A DNA stretch of 64,000 nt from Brachybacterium sp. Z12 (GTDB lineage Bacteria; Actinomycetota; Actinomycetes; Actinomycetales; Dermabacteraceae), in assembly GCF_014400405.1 (NCBI RefSeq), contig NZ_CP060496.1, positions 2,542,001 through 2,606,000 of the forward strand, written 5' to 3'. Below are positions 1-7,913 of this stretch, one piece after another. A program made the translations under genes and the position numbers. The stretch's first letter is position 1; each line of letters begins with the position of its first letter. Below the pieces are notes generated by a model, which was not told the DNA's origin, did no database searches, and was given only the letters and a program-made list of their open reading frames with translations.

Positions 1-487
1 CACCGAGATCCACACCGTCAGCACCGTCCGGCTGCGTCACGAGGATCGCCAAGTGCAATGAGTCAGAATAGATCCACGCCGCCTCTTCCAGTAGTTCCGA
101 AACAGTAGGCATGACACCAGCGGGGATTCCGCTCGTGGAGCCCGCAAAAGTGGTCAGGAGATTCACATCGGAAGATAACTGGGCTAGGTAAGAACGCATA
201 GCTACAGTGTCGACTTCGCCCGCCGGTGCCGAAATAAGCTCAGAAACTCGGGGATTTAGCATAGTCTCGATGGCGTTGGCAGCCGTCAGCACAGAGCGGC
301 ACTGTTCTCTGAACTCGGCCTTCCGTTCTGCGAAGTAGGCGCGATGCTCACGCAACGCCTGTTCAGCCGCGAGCGCCCCAGTCTGCTTGTTCGTTTGTCT
401 TGCAACCCAAATCGCGACAATGACGGCGACCGCCGAGAGCAAGGCCGCGATGACCCCCGCAGCGGCTGAGATCCAATTAGCATCCAC
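1..487 (-). CDS. Membrane-anchored hypothetical protein (partial)
   Basis: An open frame starts at GTG 487, overlaps the TAG of the HNH gene by one base, and stays open to the window edge (about 162 codons). The product starts V-D-A-N-W and has one hydrophobic segment at about residues 6-27. A charged, probably helical region follows (R-Q-T-N-K-Q ... A-E-R-K-A-E-F-R-E-Q-C). The remainder looks soluble and cytoplasmic. I do not recognise a family. Its position as the next gene after repeat 5 makes it cassette 5. If the pattern holds, it should end in the shared tail just outside the window. Confidence 0.6.
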   Translation of the reverse strand, partial: MDANWISAAAGVIAALLSAVAVIVAIWVARQTNKQTGALAAEQALREHRAYFAERKAEFREQCRSVLTAANAIETMLNPRVSELISAPAGEVDTVAMRSYLAQLSSDVNLLTTFAGSTSGIPAGVMPTVSELLEEAAWIYSDSLHLAILVTQPDGADGVDLG

Positions 488-527
488 TACTTCTTGCCCC
501 CAGAGGTTAATCCGCTACGGAACTCCA
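487..527 (-). repeat. Cassette repeat 5 (tail-coding)
   Basis: Read on the minus strand it runs from TGGAGTTCCG through the stop codon. It codes for E-F-R-S-G-L-T-S-G-G-K-K, using the rare TTA leucine codon. It differs from the other four in ending with TAG instead of TGA. The next start codon, GTG, overlaps the TAG by one base. Confidence 0.9.
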
Positions 528-1339
528 AGACGTCGCCGTCGGATTTCGGCATCATGTACTCAGGGATGTTTTCAAAATGGAAACCCTCTTCTTGCGCGAG
601 GGGCACACAAACCTCCAGAATTCTGCCCCGCAGGACACCAAGCTCCTTTGAGAATTTCTCGAACTCCGGATACCCGGATGTGACCCTAATCTCGTTCACG
701 CGGATGTCACTCAACGCGCTAACAAACTTCTTGACGGCATAATCCATAGTGGCGAGCGCCGCGCCGAACGAAGATTCGGAGTCTGTCACCCTGCCTCGGA
801 GACCGGAAATCTTCCAGCGCAGGTCTTGCACCGCAGTCCAAACTTGGTCGGGGAATTCTCTCGAATCCTCGACGTACATGAATCTGTGCCCGTCGAGCCA
901 CTGGAGGAGATCACGCGCAAGATCATGAGAGAAGCGCACCTCAGCAAGGCGCAGGAGGCTTTGCTCTAGGTCCAGGCCGACCAACCCAGACACGCGCTTC
1001 TCATGGTCGCGCTTCCAGGTCACTAGCGTCTGAGCGGGGAAAGCTTCTTCGTCCTGGTCAATCATAGAGTGACACGGCATGCACAGCCACACCGCATTAG
1101 CCTCATCGCCGCGAGAGACAACGGACCCGTCCGGCGTACGAACCAGGTCATTACCCCTCGGTCCGCCGTTCAGCCGAGGCGATATGTGCCGCCTGAGCGA
1201 TAGCGCGGGGCTTTCCCCTGCTCGTCACATACCCTGTCACGCGGAGACAGTCAGGGTTCGAGCAAACATACATAGCCTTGCGCGCGACAGCTTTGCGGAC
1301 TGCGTCCGTGAAATTTTCCCGTTGCAACTTAGCCATCAC
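487..1339 (-). CDS. HNH endonuclease, cassette 4 (frameshifted)
   Basis: The two parts join near 1165. The N-terminal frame has C-S-N-P-D-C and A-A-H-I-A-S-A. The C-terminal frame continues with G-P-R-G-N-D, then W-L-C-M-P-C-H and I-D-Q-D-E. Together they form a standard HNH nuclease with two zinc-binding C-x-x-C-type pairs and the A-A-H-I / C-H metal site. About 130 residues without a recognised domain follow, with helical character, ending in the shared tail E-F-R-S-G-L-T-S-G-G-K-K. The start is GTG 1339 overlapping the previous TGA, or ATG 1336. A defence or restriction role is inferred from neighbours and fold. The frame break may be a sequencing error, as elsewhere in this window. Confidence 0.75.
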
Positions 1340-1376
1340 TTCTTACCCCCAGAGGTTAGTCCGCTACGGAACTCCA
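1336..1376 (-). repeat. Cassette repeat 4 (tail-coding)
   Basis: The same 41-bp unit at the 3' end of the DUF262/DUF1524 gene. It codes for the shared tail and ends AAGTGATGG. The next gene can start at the overlapping GTG (1339) or at the ATG (1336). Confidence 0.9.
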
Positions 1377-3182
1377 CTACACCATCGTCAATACATTGTT
1401 TGAGAACGGCAAGCGGGAAGCGTTCTATCACCCTCGCCGCCAGTTCTTCGGTGCGGTTCTCGATGTCGTCAGGGGTCCAAGACTCCATCGTGGCCAGGTC
1501 AGAGTTCAGTGACAGTCCATTTCGATAACCGATGCGCCTGCCCTTTGAGTCCTGGCGGTCGCGCTTCTCAGGGAACGACTTGTTGCCGAGGTTGCTGTTA
1601 TACGCGGTAATGGTGAGGTTGCCGAGCCTATGCTTGTGCTCTTCCTGGACCTGGGCAGCGACCTCCTCGCCCCCGAGCATCTCCTGCCACTCAGCCGGAA
1701 GGTTCTCGCCCTGCGGGAGGATATGCTCAATCGTCCAGACAAAACGGTTCTTTTCCTGACGCCACAGGTCGACATGCGTCTCCTTGGTCATGGCGTCCTC
1801 GGCCAGCGTCGCGAGGACAAACCGAGCAACGTCGCTGTTCTCCTCGTAGATACGGCCCATGAGGCGGGTGCGAAACTCTTCGTCGGACACCGAGGCCGTG
1901 CTCAGCCTCTTTCCGACGACCTCCACCACATCGTGGCCTCGGGCATCACCCACAGTGTCGATGGTTGTCATAAACAACTTCGCCAGTGCGTACGTCTGCG
2001 GGTACCCCGTGAGGTTGCGTCGGACAAAGAAGCTCGTGAGGCGGTCTACGACAGTCTCGATGTGTGCATCTGTCAGAGCCAGATCGGACTGCTTCGATAT
2101 CAGCCACATCAGGAGTACGTAGGACGGCGCGCCCTGAGCGCGCATCAGGCGCTGGAACGACCGGTCAAGGGTAGTCGGCTGATCGAGCTCAACAACGCAG
2201 TTGATCCGACCGTAGATCTTGCTCGCCGCCACCAGCGAATCGACGACGCGTTTGAGACCCTGCTCCAGGATCTTCTCGTAGACCCTGATCAGGTTGGACT
2301 TCGTGGCGACCGAGGCGTTTGAGACTTCGGGCAACTCAGACTTGAACGCGTTGTAGTAGTGGCGGAGGAAGCGCTCCTGGGTGGAGTAGCTGTCACCGAG
2401 GCTGGTCAGCATGTCGTTCCAGTGCTTGAACGCCTCGTCGACGTCCATGATCTTGTTCTTCTCTGACTCGGCGAGAAGGTGATTCTTGATCAGGTCCACC
2501 GGCGAGAGCGGCATCCCTCGATTATTCAGGGACTCGAACAGCACGAACGCGTCGGCGTGGTTGGCCACCTCAATCTTCACGATCACCGCCTGCAGGGCTG
2601 CCTCGTGCACCCGCAGGGCCGCCTCCGGCTGTGTGATCTTTTCAGTCTCAGCAAGTTGCTGGATCGCGGAGGGAAGTAGCGGTAGCACTTGGCAATCCTG
2701 CGGCTAGGGAAGTACGGCTTCCGCTCTCCCTCCACCGGTAGGCCGGCTTCCTCGAGCACCTGGCGGAAGTCGGCGAGGTTGTGGCCCTGCTTCTGCGGCG
2801 TCACCCTTGGCTGCTGGTCTGCTTTCCGCACCAACTGCCGACCGAGGTTGATGACATCCGTCCGCGTGTCGTCGTCAAGATCGCCGAGGTGCTCCTTGAG
2901 CACCGAATGGACGGCGGCCAACAACAAGGTGAGTGTCGTCAGTCGCTGCTGCCCATCAATGACCTGCAGGATGTTGCCCTCGAGCGTGTCCGTAGTTTGG
3001 TCGAGCGTGATGATGGTGCCCAGGAAGTGCGCGCCGTCGGCCTCGATGAGATCTTCGAACAGGTCTTCCCAGTGGGACTTATACCAAGAGTACTCGCGCT
3101 GGTAGGGCGGGATCCTGTAGAGCACGTTACCTTCGTGACTGAACAGCGTGTGCACCGGATACTGGTTGGCAGATTTGATCAT
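1336..3182 (-). CDS. DUF262/DUF1524 GmrSD-like restriction protein, cassette 3 (frameshifted)
   Basis: The N-terminal half shows DUF262 (ParB-like NTPase/nicking) motifs: I-P-P-Y-Q-R-E-Y-S-W near residue 25, F-L-G-T-I-I-T, and I-D-G-Q-Q-R-L-T-T-L. The C-terminal half carries a DUF1524 HNH-type motif (E-H-I-L-P-Q ... H-R-L-G-N-L-T). This is the layout of type IV restriction enzymes of the GmrSD family, which cut modified phage DNA. The two halves are in different frames and join near 2685, at K-C-Y-R-Y-F versus V-L-P-L-L-P. The start is ATG 3182, overlapping the stop of a 31-residue upstream ORF. The protein ends in the shared tail. Function comes from family knowledge; substrate is unknown. 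Confidence 0.85.
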
Positions 3183-3274
3183 CGGGGACCTTCCAGCTCA
3201 CGTGCCCAAATGTGGCTAGACTCCCCATCGCTGAAGTCGCTGACCCTGCCGTACAGGTTGCGTGACTCTGTCAC
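3179..3274 (-). CDS. 31-residue hypothetical protein leading the DUF262 gene
   Basis: GTG 3274 overlaps the TGA of the upstream gene. The frame codes for 31 residues (starting V-T-E-S-R-N-L-Y-G-R) and stops at a TGA that overlaps ATG 3182 of the DUF262 gene. It may be a real small protein or a leader peptide whose job is to carry ribosomes from the repeat-supplied start to the DUF262 start. No known family. Confidence 0.45.
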   Translation of the reverse strand: MTESRNLYGRVSDFSDGESSHIWARELEGPR

Positions 3275-3311
3275 TTCCTACCCCCAGAGGTTAATCCGCT
3301 ACGGAACTCCA
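3271..3311 (-). repeat. Cassette repeat 3 (tail-coding)
   Basis: The 41-bp unit at the 3' end of the PD-(D/E)XK-like gene, coding for the tail with one K-to-R change (G-G-R-K) and a TTA leucine codon. It ends AAGTGA, and GTG of the next small gene overlaps the TGA. Confidence 0.9.
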
Positions 3312-3804
3312 CCTCGTGCTGATCAACGGTCCCCAGTCGCAGGTAGCGGAAGCGACCTTTGCTCGGGCGACACTTCCGCATGCTCCAGATCGGGCTCGAC
3401 TCCTCGCGTGCAACCTCTGCGGGCACCAGGAAGACCCGACCGTCAGCGACAATGTCGCCCCGCAGTACGACGTCACCCCCATCGAACAACCTCAGCGCAG
3501 TGAGCGACGAGTCGAGAACAACCAGCCCGAGATGAGTCGCTGACTCATGCAGAACTTCGGTGCGTCCGCCCGCGTCCCACTCGACCGCATCGACACTGCC
3601 GCCACCGTCGAGGTCGACTTGGAGGATCGAAGCCACCTTGGCATCCACCCGGACGTCCCCCTCAACGCTTGACACGTCGTAACCTCTGTGCCGCGGACTA
3701 TGGAGAATTGCGTCAGCGTGTCGTTGGTAGACGGCTTCCGCCACCAATGCCTCGCTGATCGCGCCCCTAACGTGGGCGGTTAGGTCCCAGTGCTCGCTGG
3801 TCAC
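3271..3804 (-). CDS. Predicted PD-(D/E)XK-type nuclease, cassette 2
   Basis: 177 residues, starting at the GTG (3804) that overlaps the previous stop. The N-terminal part has a helix with G-A-I-S-E-A-L-V-A-E-A, then H-R-G-Y-D-V-S-S, then V-R-V-D-A-K-V. The spacing of E, D and D-x-K fits the restriction-endonuclease-like (PD-(D/E)XK) core. The later part has no recognised domain. The protein ends Q-H-E-V-E-F-R-S-G-L-T-S-G-G-R-K, that is, in the shared tail. Nuclease assignment rests on motif reading only; an inactive relative is possible. Confidence 0.55.
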   Translation of the reverse strand: MTSEHWDLTAHVRGAISEALVAEAVYQRHADAILHSPRHRGYDVSSVEGDVRVDAKVASILQVDLDGGGSVDAVEWDAGGRTEVLHESATHLGLVVLDSSLTALRLFDGGDVVLRGDIVADGRVFLVPAEVAREESSPIWSMRKCRPSKGRFRYLRLGTVDQHEVEFRSGLTSGGRK

Positions 3805-3841
3805 TTCTTCCCGCCAGAGGTTAGTCCGCTATGGAACTCCA
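3801..3841 (-). repeat. Cassette repeat 2 (tail-coding)
   Basis: The 41-bp unit following the 214-residue membrane protein gene. One base change gives H instead of R (E-F-H-S-G). It ends AAGTGA with an overlapping GTG that starts the PD-(D/E)XK-like gene. Confidence 0.9.
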
Positions 3842-3849
3842 CCACATCT

Positions 3850-4494
3850 TCACCGCTCATTACCATCCTCAAGGTCAAGCCAAACGCCCCCTTCGAGCTC
3901 ACTGATCGCTGGCCCTTTCTGTCGACCGCTATACGCCAGGCGAAAGCTGCGATGCCCCTCTTTTCCACCGTCGAACGTCAAGACCCAAGGCACCCCAACG
4001 AAGTTTCCCGAAGCGTTGTATTGACGGTAGCCCCCGATCAGCCTAGATAGGGTCCACCGCCCCGTTGCCCCTTCGCTATCCCACCACTTCACAAGGTCCG
4101 ACACGACTTTCAATGGAATCGCAGGCGGTAGGTAATACGCCCCGTACTCGTCTCGAAGTACTTCCCCGTCTCGCTGCTCCTGTCCGCCGCGCGACTCATC
4201 GCCCTCACCTACCGAATTGGTTGAGATCGGTGCGGATTCTGCAGTCGAAGTCGCATTAACCGCGGGCTTCATCGCGCGAACCAATTCACGTGTATCGGAT
4301 GAACTTGTCGCAGCCTGCCTGGCCAGACCCTCAAGTCGCCGCAGCACCCTTGCTTGACCTTCAGCTTCGAGCTGCGCAGAGTCAGTTTGAACCTTATAGA
4401 TCAGCAGGGAAACTCCAACGGCTGCCAGCGCAACACCCCCGAACACCAAACTAAGCAGGTTCCAAACAAGATTATCAGAACCAGTGAAAATCAC
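3850..4494 (-). CDS. Membrane-anchored hypothetical protein, cassette 1
   Basis: From GTG 4494 there are 214 residues with a membrane segment at about 10-33, a coiled-coil-like stretch (Q-L-E-A-E-G-Q-A-R-V-L-R-R-L-E), a polar linker, then a soluble domain from about residue 120. The same frame is open for about 25 more codons upstream and codes for a second hydrophobic segment, so the real start may be a CTG or ATT overlapping the stop of the preceding gene. As written it stops at 3850, just short of repeat 2. Removing one G there would run it in frame into the shared tail. Alternatively a 19-codon ORF from ATG 3860 carries the tail. Family unknown. Confidence 0.55.
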   Translation of the reverse strand: MIFTGSDNLVWNLLSLVFGGVALAAVGVSLLIYKVQTDSAQLEAEGQARVLRRLEGLARQAATSSSDTRELVRAMKPAVNATSTAESAPISTNSVGEGDESRGGQEQRDGEVLRDEYGAYYLPPAIPLKVVSDLVKWWDSEGATGRWTLSRLIGGYRQYNASGNFVGVPWVLTFDGGKEGHRSFRLAYSGRQKGPAISELEGGVWLDLEDGNER

Positions 4495-4550
4495 GCCGTA
4501 TGCGACCGCGACAGCGACGGTGAAAAGACTGGATCCGAAAGCTCCACAAA

Positions 4551-4796
4551 TCAGCCAAGCAAGACCTGAAGACCCTTCGTGCTCCCCCTTGAGCTCTCAC
4601 TCACGACGAGTGCCGTACGCCCTCCACGCCCGGGTAGCTTGGTGACGACCCCATCGGTCACGAGGTCGTTGCGGACGCTCCAGTACTCGTCATCAGGCAC
4701 CTCGAGTAGTTTTCGCAACTCGGCGTTGGTCCTGGGTGTCCCGTCATTCGGAAGCAGCGCAAGGAGTCTCGCTGCAGTGTCACCGGAACCAGTCAC
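4551..4796 (-). CDS. Small winged-helix protein, cassette 1
   Basis: 81 residues from the GTG overlapping the ychF stop. The middle (N-A-E-L-R-K-L-L ... Y-W-S-V-R-N-D-L-V-T-D-G) followed by G-R-G-G-R resembles the small winged helix-turn-helix domain often found at the start of restriction and other defence proteins. It could be a regulator or a DNA-recognition subunit for the membrane protein that follows. It does not itself end in the shared tail; the second gene of this cassette lies next to the repeat. Confidence 0.6.
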   Translation of the reverse strand: MTGSGDTAARLLALLPNDGTPRTNAELRKLLEVPDDEYWSVRNDLVTDGVVTKLPGRGGRTALVVSESSRGSTKGLQVLLG

Positions 4797-4833
4797 TTTT
4801 TGCCGCCAGAGGTTAGTCCGCTACGGAACTCCA
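4793..4833 (-). repeat. Cassette repeat 1, forming the 3' end of ychF
   Basis: The first repeat is fused in frame to ychF, replacing the usual YchF ending with S-G-L-T-S-G-G-K-K. It ends AAAAAGTGA, and the GTG overlapping the stop begins the first cassette gene. The boundary with native ychF probably lies in or near GTGGAGTTCCG, which fits both normal ychF and the repeat. Confidence 0.9.
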
Positions 4834-5896
4834 CCACGTCGCCGTCCTTCATGACGTAGTCCTTGCCCTCGATGCGCACCCAGCCCTTGGCCTTGGCCTC
4901 GGCCATCGAGCCGGCCTCCATGAGCTGGTCGAAGGAGACGATCTCGGCCTTGATGAAGCCGCGCTCGAAGTCGGTGTGGATGACGCCGGCGGCCTGGGGT
5001 GCGGTGGCTCCCTTGGGAATGGTCCAGGCGCGGGATTCCTTGGGGCCGGCGGTCAGGTAGGACTGCAGGCCGAGGGTGTCGTAGCCGACGCGGGCGAGCT
5101 GGGCGAGGCCCGACTCCTCCTGGCCGGTGGACTCGAGCATCTCCGCGGCCTCGTCCTCGTCGAGCTCGATGAGCTCGGATTCGAACTTCGCGTCGAGGAA
5201 GATCGCCTCGGCGGGGGCGACGAGGTTTCGCAGCGCCTGCTGGGAGGCGGCATCGGCGAGCCCCTCCTCGTCGGTGTTGAAGACGTAGATGAAGGGCTTG
5301 GCCGTCATCAGCTGCAGGTCCCGGATCGCGGCGACGTCGATGCCGGCCTCCTCAGCGCCCTGGTAGAGGGTCTTGCCGGTCTCCAGCAATGCCTTCGCCT
5401 TGATGACGTTCTTGAGCACGGCGGCGTCGACGAGGCCGCGCTTGGTGTCCTTCTCCAGGCGCTGCATCGAGTTCTCGATGGTCTGGAGGTCGGCGAGGAT
5501 CAGCTCGGTGGTGATGACCTCCATGTCGTTGGAAGGGTCGGTGGAGCCCTCCACGCGGGTCACATCCGGGTCCGCGAAGGCGCGGGTGACCTGGCAGATC
5601 GCGTCGGCCTCGCGGATGTTGGCGAGGAACTTGTTGCCCAGGCCCTCACCCTCGCTGGCGCCCTTGACGATGCCGGCGATGTCCACGAAGGACACGGTCG
5701 CGGGCAGCAGCTTCTGGCTGCCGAACACGGTGGCGAGCTCCGCCAGTCGCGGATCGGGCAGCGGGACCATGCCGATGTTGGGGTCGATGGTCGCGAACGG
5801 ATAATTCGCGGCGAGGACCTCAGCGCGGGTCAGGGCGTTGAAGAGGGTGGACTTGCCGACATTGGGCAGACCGACGATTCCGATAGTAAGAGCCAC
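4793..5896 (-). CDS. ychF: Redox-regulated ATPase/GTPase YchF with a replaced C-terminus
   Basis: Obg-family YchF, a ribosome-associated P-loop ATPase. Visible are the P-loop G-L-P-N-V-G-K-S (residues 9-16), the switch region D-I-A-G-I-V-K-G-A, the altered G4 motif F-N-T-D-E, and the C-terminal TGS domain ending D-G-D-V-V-E-F-R. Known YchF proteins end F-R-F-N-V. Here the last residues are S-G-L-T-S-G-G-K-K, supplied by cassette repeat 1, so the length (367) is slightly above normal. The start is GTG 5896 with no clear Shine-Dalgarno and a TAGAAT box 8 bases upstream, so the message may be leaderless. It heads the whole cassette array. Confidence 0.95.
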   Translation of the reverse strand: MALTIGIVGLPNVGKSTLFNALTRAEVLAANYPFATIDPNIGMVPLPDPRLAELATVFGSQKLLPATVSFVDIAGIVKGASEGEGLGNKFLANIREADAICQVTRAFADPDVTRVEGSTDPSNDMEVITTELILADLQTIENSMQRLEKDTKRGLVDAAVLKNVIKAKALLETGKTLYQGAEEAGIDVAAIRDLQLMTAKPFIYVFNTDEEGLADAASQQALRNLVAPAEAIFLDAKFESELIELDEDEAAEMLESTGQEESGLAQLARVGYDTLGLQSYLTAGPKESRAWTIPKGATAPQAAGVIHTDFERGFIKAEIVSFDQLMEAGSMAEAKAKGWVRIEGKDYVMKDGDVVEFRSGLTSGGKK

Positions 5897-6862: not shown

Positions 6863-7913
6863 TCAGAACCCGAAGGCGTCCCCGAGCTTGCCCAGGCCGT
6901 CGCTCACGTTCGAGGCGACGTTACTGATCCCCTCGGAGACGGTTTCTGCCGCATTGCCGACAGCGTCGCTGACCGTCGAGGCGGTGTTCGAGGCGAAGTC
7001 CACGACGTTCGACGCGGCGTTGCTGACGGTCGAGGTGATGCCGTCCCAGTTCTCGTAGACCATCTTGCCGACGTCCATCCCGGCGGAGACGAGTCCGAGG
7101 CCGGCACCGACCGCAGCGACCACCGGTGCTGCGGGCCCGGTGAACGGTGCGGCGATCATCAGCGCGCCGGCTGTCGAGAGGATGCCGCTGGAGCGGTCGT
7201 ACCAGTTGTCAGAGGTGGCGATCTGATGGACGCCCAGACCCACGTCGAGGAAGGGCAGGGCCTTCCCGAGGCCGCTGCCCGCCGTCTTCAGCCACGGCGC
7301 GACCTCGTCGAGCTTGTTGAGGTGCTTCAGCGGCTCGAAATTCCCGATCGAGGTGGGCAGGCCAAGCTTCCCGAGCAGCTTCTCGGCGCCCGCCTGCCAC
7401 CCCTTACCGCCCTTGAAGAGCTCATCGAGGTAGGACTGCTTCCACAGGCCCTCGAGACCGCGCCGGGCAAGTGCCCCGAACTCGTCCGCAGCGGACGGGA
7501 TGCGAGAGAGGAAGTCAGCGAGCGACTTGGCCTTCTTGTAGATCCCCTGGCCGTCCTTGGCCAGGTCCTTGAGGAATCCTAGCGGGCTGAAAGGCGCATC
7601 CCCCTTCCCGATGAGGCCGACATCGGTGCTGCCCTCGCCGCCCACGTCCGAGGCGGTGTCCTGCTCCTCCCGCGTGCTGGCGCAGCTCGTCGGCGCGCCC
7701 GGTCAGCTCCTCGGAGCGCAGCTGGAACAGCGTCGAGGCGCCGCTGGACCAGGAATCGCGGAAGCTCTCCGCATCCGGGCCATGCCAGATCGCCGCGTTC
7801 ATGACCAGGGGTTCCAGGGTGTCTCGGAGCTCGAGGAGTGCTCGCGCGCGCTCCGCAACGCGGTCGGAGTGCTCGCGGAGGGCGGCTGTATCCGCACCCA
7901 TGAAGCCGTTCAT
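6863..7913 (-). CDS. WXG100-type protein with long C-terminal region (frameshifted)
   Basis: The N-terminal about 90 residues (from ATG 7913, after GAGGG) form a helical hairpin with W-H-G-P-D-A at the turn, typical of WXG100/type VII secretion substrates. A frame break near 7665, repaired by one C, leads to about 260 more residues. These include a glycine/alanine-rich hydrophobic stretch (G-A-L-M-I-A-A-P-F-T-G-P) and end in A/S/V-N repeats. No toxin active-site motif is recognisable, so it may be an exported structural or pore-like protein rather than a polymorphic toxin. No secretion machinery gene is in the window. Confidence 0.65.

Follow-up and report, generated by a model that had tools for sequence, protein, structure and literature searches.

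How did a row of small, mostly single genes come to stand behind ychF, separated by copies of a sequence that also ends ychF itself? The question is raised by the 64,000-nucleotide stretch of Brachybacterium sp. Z12 analysed here (NZ_CP060496.1, positions 2,542,001 to 2,606,000; hereafter the window), taken from a genome, G000, that is one contig of 3,511,914 bases in an assembly estimated to be 85.7% complete. In this stretch ychF (4793..5896, minus strand, 367 aa; Pfam YchF-GTPase_C, E 4.5e-37) is followed by five gene units, which we call cassettes. We consider it probable that the cassettes, most of them with one gene, have been exchanged horizontally and have accumulated at the ychF 3' end, that they were likely inserted there by a large serine recombinase (LSR), and that its attachment sites double as C-terminal codons.

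Repeated sites and a cassette that changes place

A repeat finder located five copies of a ~41-bp site, all in one orientation, between positions 487 and 4834. A pattern search of the whole genome (up to three mismatches) returned exactly these five window copies and none for the reversed control, which rules out chance and confirms the five 41-bp repeats of one direction reported in a sequence-only reading of this stretch. Each site encodes VEFRSGLTSGGKK followed by a stop, or a near variant; read on the minus strand, the five copies give (V/L)EF(R/H)SGLTSGG(K/R)K-stop. In four of the five, the site is the in-frame end of a gene: ychF (R0, 4793..4834, where the ychF half of the site, B, meets an arm, P'), a 177-aa gene (R2, 3271..3312), a GmrSD-like gene (R3, 1336..1377) and a 201-aa HNH-related gene (R4, 487..528). 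The earlier statement that every repeat is protein-coding and sits at the 3' end of a gene thus holds for these four and fails for R1 (3801..3842), which lies in another frame. The stop codon of the site shares bases with a GTG at 4793-4796, 3801-3804, 3271-3274 and 1336-1339, and at 487 the overlap is of a single base.

The cassettes of the window, like the sites all on the minus strand, are ~0.5-1.9 kb long, mostly hold one gene, and have a GC content of 58-64%, compared with 70% for the window. Cassette 1 (3850..4796) comprises an 81-aa open reading frame (ORF; 4551-4796), whose GTG overlaps the ychF stop, and a 214-aa ORF (3850-4494) with a hydrophobic N-terminal stretch as judged by eye; neither had a match in Pfam or NCBIfam. 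Cassette 2 (3271..3804) is the 177-aa gene, which starts at a GTG overlapping the R1 stop, ends in R2, and encodes a protein that found no match in Pfam, PADLOC or NCBIfam. Cassette 3 (1336..3274) begins with a GTG-started leader of 31 codons, followed by the GmrSD-like gene ending in R3, which combines DUF262 and DUF1524 (Pfam GmrSD_N and GmrSD_C) and whose frame is broken (ORFs 2583-3182 and 1336-2688). Cassette 4 (487..1339) encodes an HNH-type nuclease, again in a broken frame (ORFs 1151-1339 and 487-1092), which matched the PADLOC Effector/SAVED_HNH models (E about 1e-8) and ends in R4. In view of the estimated 85.7% completeness of the assembly, the frame breaks at 1336-3182 and 487-1339 may be due either to sequencing error or to true decay. 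Cassette 5 occupies 1..487 and runs on to -319, left of the window (L006:11682-12488); its 268-aa protein also has a hydrophobic N-terminal stretch by eye and ends in GDAVEFRFNV.

The cargo had been read as nucleases and membrane proteins. We found a GmrSD-like restriction gene and an effector-like HNH nuclease gene, both akin to anti-phage genes, two genes with hydrophobic N-termini, and two others; for the last four, the libraries searched gave no family assignment. No recombinase or relaxase match was obtained for the window cassette proteins in library scans. Left of position 1, where a search for further repeats and a recombinase had been suggested, we found the rest of the last cassette with its VEFRFNV end and no further repeat; a recombinase family was found at the same site in other genomes. 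Across loci, first or other cassette genes matched GmrSD/HEC-06/Orf5-like proteins, a TIR protein (spbK-like), an OLD/AriA/NsnB-like ATPase, an HNH effector-like protein, type II methyltransferases, an HSDR_N protein, HEPN proteins, a type III restriction pair (in genome G764) and a protein of the Pfam Beta-lactamase (serine hydrolase) family, and several cassette proteins were without a match in the libraries tried.

Cassette 3 provided evidence of exchange. This 1.9-kb GmrSD cassette, third in the row of G000, stands first in three genomes of another family and genus (G117, G319 and G041), which are probably Brevibacterium-like, judging, for instance, by an 83% identical Brevibacterium LSR. 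Between G000 and these genomes the GmrSD gene is 94.6, 96.5 and 92.8% identical, respectively, compared with 74.5, 75.2 and 73.9% for ychF; outside the sites, identity falls to ~40%, and the left break against G000 lies at the core of the site. The end of the cassette also differs with its place: it reads DGD- or similar VEFR plus SGLTSGGK when another cassette follows (G000, G117, G319), and VEFR plus FNV when it is the last in the row (G041). This change of position and ending between genomes supports the idea of mobile cassettes that had been drawn from the layout. In a protein search that found 3783 GmrSD homologues over threshold, 83 of the best 120 keep a native ending after RFPL, with no half-site tail, and 17 of the best 120 carry a half-site-like tail, DGDxVEFR followed by varied arms (SGLTSGGKK, AGLTSGGKK, FNV, FNN, FSN, HQATSG; some degenerate). 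Four of these 17 share the stem ANTRSPSAPSDGDGV(E/D)F and have three different endings.

A probably displaced end of ychF and a candidate recombinase

The ychF gene of G000 ends in FRSGLTSGGKK in place of the usual FRFNV. Among 75 tails read at 80 related loci, VEFRFNV or a near form ended 58 of the 75 ychF genes, and a P'-type arm was present in eight of the 75. The GDAVEFRFNV-stop at the end of the row's final gene, immediately outside the window on its left, is the ychF-type end that is absent from the G000 ychF, and we take this far-end FRFNV tail to be probably ychF's own, displaced. The ten tail codons of ychF have a GC content at third codon positions (GC3) of 0.50, compared with 0.935 in the body of the gene. 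Moreover, joining the outer flanks at the core gave a normal ychF end, VVE(F/L)RFNV, in 7/7 cases tried, namely the arrays of G000, G041, G117, G376 and G025 (which gives VVELRFNV) and the LSR elements of G772 and G765. The shared core GTGGTGGAG (codons V-V-E), inside V-V-E-F-R, is the point at which similarity between genomes is lost.

In three Brevibacterium-like genomes (G759, G768 and G772), the ychF end carries the same arm as the window copies. Compared with the five window copies, 33-39 of 39 bases match, and the 39-base arm of R3 is identical to that of the LSR-linked site of G759 (39/39). G772 contains an 8.0-kb element with this arm at ychF and a second site at its other end, which overlaps a 557-aa ORF (L137) with Resolvase and Recombinase domains; a gene scan of this element, which did not cover its left part, also revealed a relaxase of the MobA type and a NikA-like protein, along with a small protein whose HTH match narrowly missed the cut-off. 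Related LSRs are present in G759 and G768. The LSR lies 8-19 kb beyond the ychF site in G772 and G768 (~19 kb and on the same contig in G768). In G759 the LSR frame (L139) begins 42 bp away from the right-hand site; since both lie on a different contig from ychF, we infer that they belong together with the ychF site. The left and right arms are inverted repeats of each other (18/21 in G759, 16/21 in G772), forming a near-palindrome as expected of attP, and the 8-base core between them, GTGGTGGA, suggests a central GT. The sequences show the attachment features of an LSR, with a short core between inverted-repeat arms, an attB in the target gene, hybrid attL/attR sites and outer flanks that join to a normal end; recombination itself is predicted from them.

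Pfam recognized Resolvase and Recombinase domains in three of the four LSRs examined and Resolvase alone in the fourth. Related LSRs with other arms were found in a Schaalia (L056), in G765 and in G094 (N-terminal part), and the LSR query matched six of the 21 repeat-bearing genomes, weakly in G292. If half-sites are written as pairs, with B and B' for the halves of the ychF site, P and P' for those of attP and x for the end of a cargo gene, the G319 row shows three B-P' or x-P' sites and then one P-B' site ~16.5 kb past the third; no LSR was found in this ~16.5-kb stretch, where several ORFs look transposase-like by eye. A phage origin of the LSR was also considered and is unsupported: the best matches listed from 765 phage records share 29-31% identity with the LSR of G772, no relative was confirmed in viral contigs, and searches for the site gave nothing in viral contigs (exact pattern), plasmids or phages.

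A classical LSR element leaves B-P' and P-B'. The window cassettes lack a P half at their 3' end, and the coding stretch found there matches the ychF half-site GAYGGYGAYGTS. Over 11 P'-type ends picked by rule, leaving out ychF ends and ends with a P-like half, the match averaged 9.2 of 12 (range 4-12), and the same mean was obtained for 16 hand-picked ends, taken from 10 genomes or loci. The control, 3284 other V-E codon pairs from the same loci, averaged 5.5, and 0 of 100000 resamples reached the observed means. Cargo ends thus match the ychF half-site, so that the last cassette forms x-B', close to the ychF site B-B'.

The stop codons of the sites bear on expression. Counting repeated contexts once and leaving out the G000 copy that begins TTGGAG, 24 of 37 distinct arm sites end in TGA, which by itself produces a GTGA or ATGA overlap. 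At 19 of these 24 the overlapping start opens a frame of at least 60 aa (two of the 19 run off the piece and reach 608 and 655 aa in fuller sequence); four others open the 30-31-codon GmrSD leader, the stop of which overlaps the GmrSD start, and one opens 6 codons. This arrangement predicts co-translation of the cassettes with ychF by coupling.

In the mechanism that we propose, the LSR would treat the last ychF codons as its chromosomal attachment site, the arm being presumably the right half (P') of its attP. The last codons of the cargo would imitate the left half of the ychF attachment site, and whichever cassette stands last would present a complete site again, at which new elements could enter. 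Autonomous carrier elements would bring the LSR together with mobilization genes, and a leaving element might recombine its own P-B' end with any upstream x-P', carrying along 0 to n cassettes. With the stop codon of each site overlapping a start, cassettes could be read from ychF without a promoter of their own. More tentatively, and with rather more doubt than confidence, we suggest that the row may be a serine-recombinase counterpart of the integron in Actinomycetota, in which one sequence is at once LSR half-site, C-terminal codons and overlapping start of the next gene, and in which any gene bearing the tail would become movable, be co-translated with ychF and regenerate the entry site. 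If true, this would be a second, independent way to stack and express promoterless cassettes, relying on serine recombinases and coupling where integrons use a tyrosine integrase with folded attC sites; it would account for the defence-like genes behind ychF in several actinobacterial families, and the signature V-V-E-F-R plus arm could guide searches for new cassettes and for new LSRs that already come with their attachment sites.

Distribution, breakpoints and rival explanations

The R-type arm was sought in samples that overlap one another, the counts for close relatives, order and class each including G000. It was present in 4/58 close relatives (strict pattern), 14/396 genomes of the order, 12/57 genomes of the Brevibacterium-like genus (reversed control 0 in the last two) and 2/394 genomes of a class-wide sample (G000 and one other). 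Outside the order it is rare in the class sample, with a Gordonia (L082) as one example. Other genomes have the site at the ychF end in nearly all cases. The VEFRFNV-type pattern, which also counts intact ychF ends, was found in 29/38 genomes of the own genus (at least two copies in 19/38) and in 53/57 of the Brevibacterium-like genus (at least two copies in 35/57), with a reversed control of 0 in both, and many VEFRFNV-type junctions have P-like left arms. The R-type array is one form of a wider hotspot.

The distance from ychF to a conserved downstream neighbour, which we take to be SCO1664-like, is 2.2 kb in G022, where the R repeat is absent, and reaches 7.8 kb in G000 and 11.6 kb in G016; the place is therefore syntenic and its content variable. 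G022 shows an ordinary ychF end at the syntenic place and keeps one VEFRFNV-type unit; a wholly empty site was not found within the same genus. The sequence-only reading had named the repeat in other genomes, cassette gain, loss or reordering, an empty site in relatives and a recombinase as tests of mobility, and the occurrence of the repeat elsewhere, the change in position and ending of the GmrSD cassette, G022 and the recombinase at the site favour mobile cassettes by those tests.

Breakpoints were analysed in 47 loci, using 150 segments of at least 250 bp and at least 80% identity shared between different genomes downstream of ychF (shorter or less similar segments, within-genome matches and segments upstream of ychF were left out). 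Segment ends lay within 45 bp of a junction in 193/575 cases, compared with 15.9 expected; 106 of the 150 shared segments had at least one end so placed, and 13 had both. A 1.19-kb unit bounded by junctions on both sides is 99% identical between G319 and G012, which represent the two families, and a 3.7-kb unit bounded in the same way is 99.4% identical between G023 and G173, of one genus.

Several findings weigh against our reading. R1 is out of frame, the 214-aa ORF stopping just ahead of it; the GmrSD frame of G041 stops ahead of its FRFNV-type end, and one cassette end (L020) matches the half-site poorly (4 of 12). The LSR query at E 1e-30 found nothing in 15 of the 21 repeat-bearing genomes, including G000, and the right-hand site of G768 was not seen in the stretch read. 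In G764 the R site lies away from ychF in the 3 kb read upstream, and in G769 there is no ychF in ~14 kb upstream of the first site. Moreover, 44 of the 150 shared segments have no end at a junction. Concerning expression, a control of 536 other gene ends that share this overlap showed 259 (~48%) opening at least 60 aa, so about half of comparable overlaps in these GC-rich genomes open long frames, which weakens the argument for coupling; compared with 19/24 at the sites (binomial about 0.002, the sites not being independent), the excess is real but moderate. The remaining 13 of the 37 sites end in TAG or TAA, and only one of them (L125) has a nearby start, opening 11 codons. A cassette circle would have a non-canonical attP, with no P half at its 3' end, so that transport as a passenger has to be assumed, and cassette movement, its enzyme and translational coupling are all inferred from sequence.

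The strongest competitor, which we consider unlikely, is ordinary tandem accretion of LSR islands, as in the staphylococcal cassette chromosome (SCC) and in ssrA islands, with the in-frame ends and overlaps as incidental remnants of internal deletion. It would account for the rows of VEFRFNV-type junctions, many with P-like left arms, that are commoner than R-type rows in both genera, and for the ~48% of comparable overlaps elsewhere that open long frames; it also has a precedent in the tandem LSR islands of Dehalococcoides, 15 of which lack integration modules according to the available text of PMC3146451. What it leaves unexplained is that unrelated cargo genes share a half-site-like coding 3' end at a level reached by none of the 100000 resamples, and that GmrSD homologues keep this half-site with many different arms, 83 of the best 120 lacking it. 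An improbable further rival holds that a small number of LSR insertions happened long ago and that shuffling since then has gone mainly by homologous recombination between the ~41-bp repeats and the neighbouring conserved ychF, without the LSR. The match to the LSR in just six of 21 array genomes agrees with this, as does an identity of 94.4% for GmrSD against 95.9% for ychF between G117 and G319, which fits repeated exchange; against it, the repeats are short and divergent, the 1.2-kb module shared at 99% between two families stops at junctions on both sides, and a single kind of gene end is followed by different arms, among them AGLTSGGKK, FNN and FSN.

Two further explanations were rejected. 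That SGLTSGGKK is a functional C-terminal peptide tagging several proteins would fit its good conservation among the G000 copies, and is very improbable given the GC3 of the ychF tail (0.50 vs 0.935), the identity of the arm with half of a DNA near-palindrome and the other peptides that follow the same core. Old tandem duplication of the ychF 3' end and local genes, followed by vertical inheritance, would account for copies that all point in one direction beside ychF; it is refuted by the identities of cassette and ychF, the different neighbours and the syntenic G022 without an R copy, and we regard it as having next to no chance of being right. Horizontally exchanged cassettes, probably inserted by an LSR, remain our preferred explanation of the row.

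Some loci showed additional features. The R site of G764 (L133, reversed; core position 2921) is followed by a type III restriction pair and adjoins a multicopper-oxidase-like gene and a small resolvase (by eye). G769 (L136:10118) has a P-P' junction between tandem units, the first with a type I restriction-like operon (by eye), and contigs C3 and C34 of G777 carry VEFRFNV-type copies, with both orientations on one contig. A toxin-antitoxin-like unit of ~634 bp (HigBA by eye) occurs at L006:9199-9663 and in more than 30 other loci, some from one genome; its left boundary is mostly at a VEFRFNV tail, and in L225, L220 and L217 it stands directly behind ychF. Longer repeats of the ychF 3' end were seen at junctions in L221 (G169; 360, 4393 and 18730, reversed) and L222 (2061 and 5830), as if some units carried a larger restored piece of ychF. 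A similar gene lies near ychF in three genera (L091 11814-13759, reversed; L132 8373-10399; L082 11820-12662; by eye) and is followed in G034 and G759 by a second related gene, making a candidate shuffled module. Elsewhere in the window, a 260-aa ORF (6863-7645) has a repetitive, S/N/V-rich C-terminal half.

Relation to integrons and to serine-recombinase islands

An integron holds its cassettes in an array at a fixed entry point; they mostly consist of one gene, often lacking a promoter, with a recombination site behind each. The integron-like layout remarked on from the sequence is borne out in its logic, an array of gene-plus-site units at one entry point, and not in its machinery: the linked enzyme is a serine and not a tyrosine recombinase, the site is coding, and there is no foldable attC-like site. 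Membership among integrons was accordingly rejected, since the integron integrase model TIGR02249 was over its cut-off in 0/14 genomes and single-strand folding of 5/5 site copies was no better than that of shuffles (z -0.57 to 0.79). Tyrosine recombinases under the threshold occurred in 14/14 genomes and in 13/14 controls.

SCC and enterococcal cassette chromosome (ECC) elements resemble the array in having an LSR, a target in the 3' region of a conserved gene, dyad-symmetric att sites and, in some elements, several right-hand sites, as far as set out in the accessible text of PMC6222049. The LSR at the site was found next to junctions in other genomes and not in G000. SCC and ECC differ in that their recombinase is CcrAB at the 3' end of rlmH, the target here being ychF; the four LSRs score 58-79 bits with the CcrB model, whose cut-off is 900, and all four lie far under the curated cut-offs of the CcrA, CcrB and CcrC models. 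ECC elements measure 21-78 kb in the same portion of PMC6222049, compared with ~0.5-1.9 kb for the window units, and the sites described here lie inside cargo reading frames. The ssrA islands of Dehalococcoides (DsiB) are likewise tandem, bounded by direct repeats behind one gene, and present with and without integration modules (PMC3146451, in the part available); they differ in targeting an RNA gene, and the available part describes no translated site at the ends of cargo.

The G772 element, with LSR, relaxase and NikA-like genes, is a candidate integrative and mobilizable element (IME), and the nearest model for the cassettes themselves is the cis-mobilizable element (CIME), which lacks integration genes and can be moved with a neighbour, its accretion being reviewed in the accessible sections of PMC5704250. 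The cassettes differ from both in being mostly single genes whose own 3' end is half the site; library scans found no integrase or relaxase of their own in the window cassettes, and no LSR of this family was found in G000. In Streptococcus pneumoniae, a prophage lies between dnaN and ychF, that is, upstream of ychF and in another sequence (PMC6375853 and PMC8637289, available parts). A literature search, with most subscription journals outside its reach, returned no LSR cassette array at ychF and no in-frame single-gene cassettes with a ychF site. Placed among these systems, the array is probably a variant of LSR tandem islands, integron-like in its working and itself no integron.

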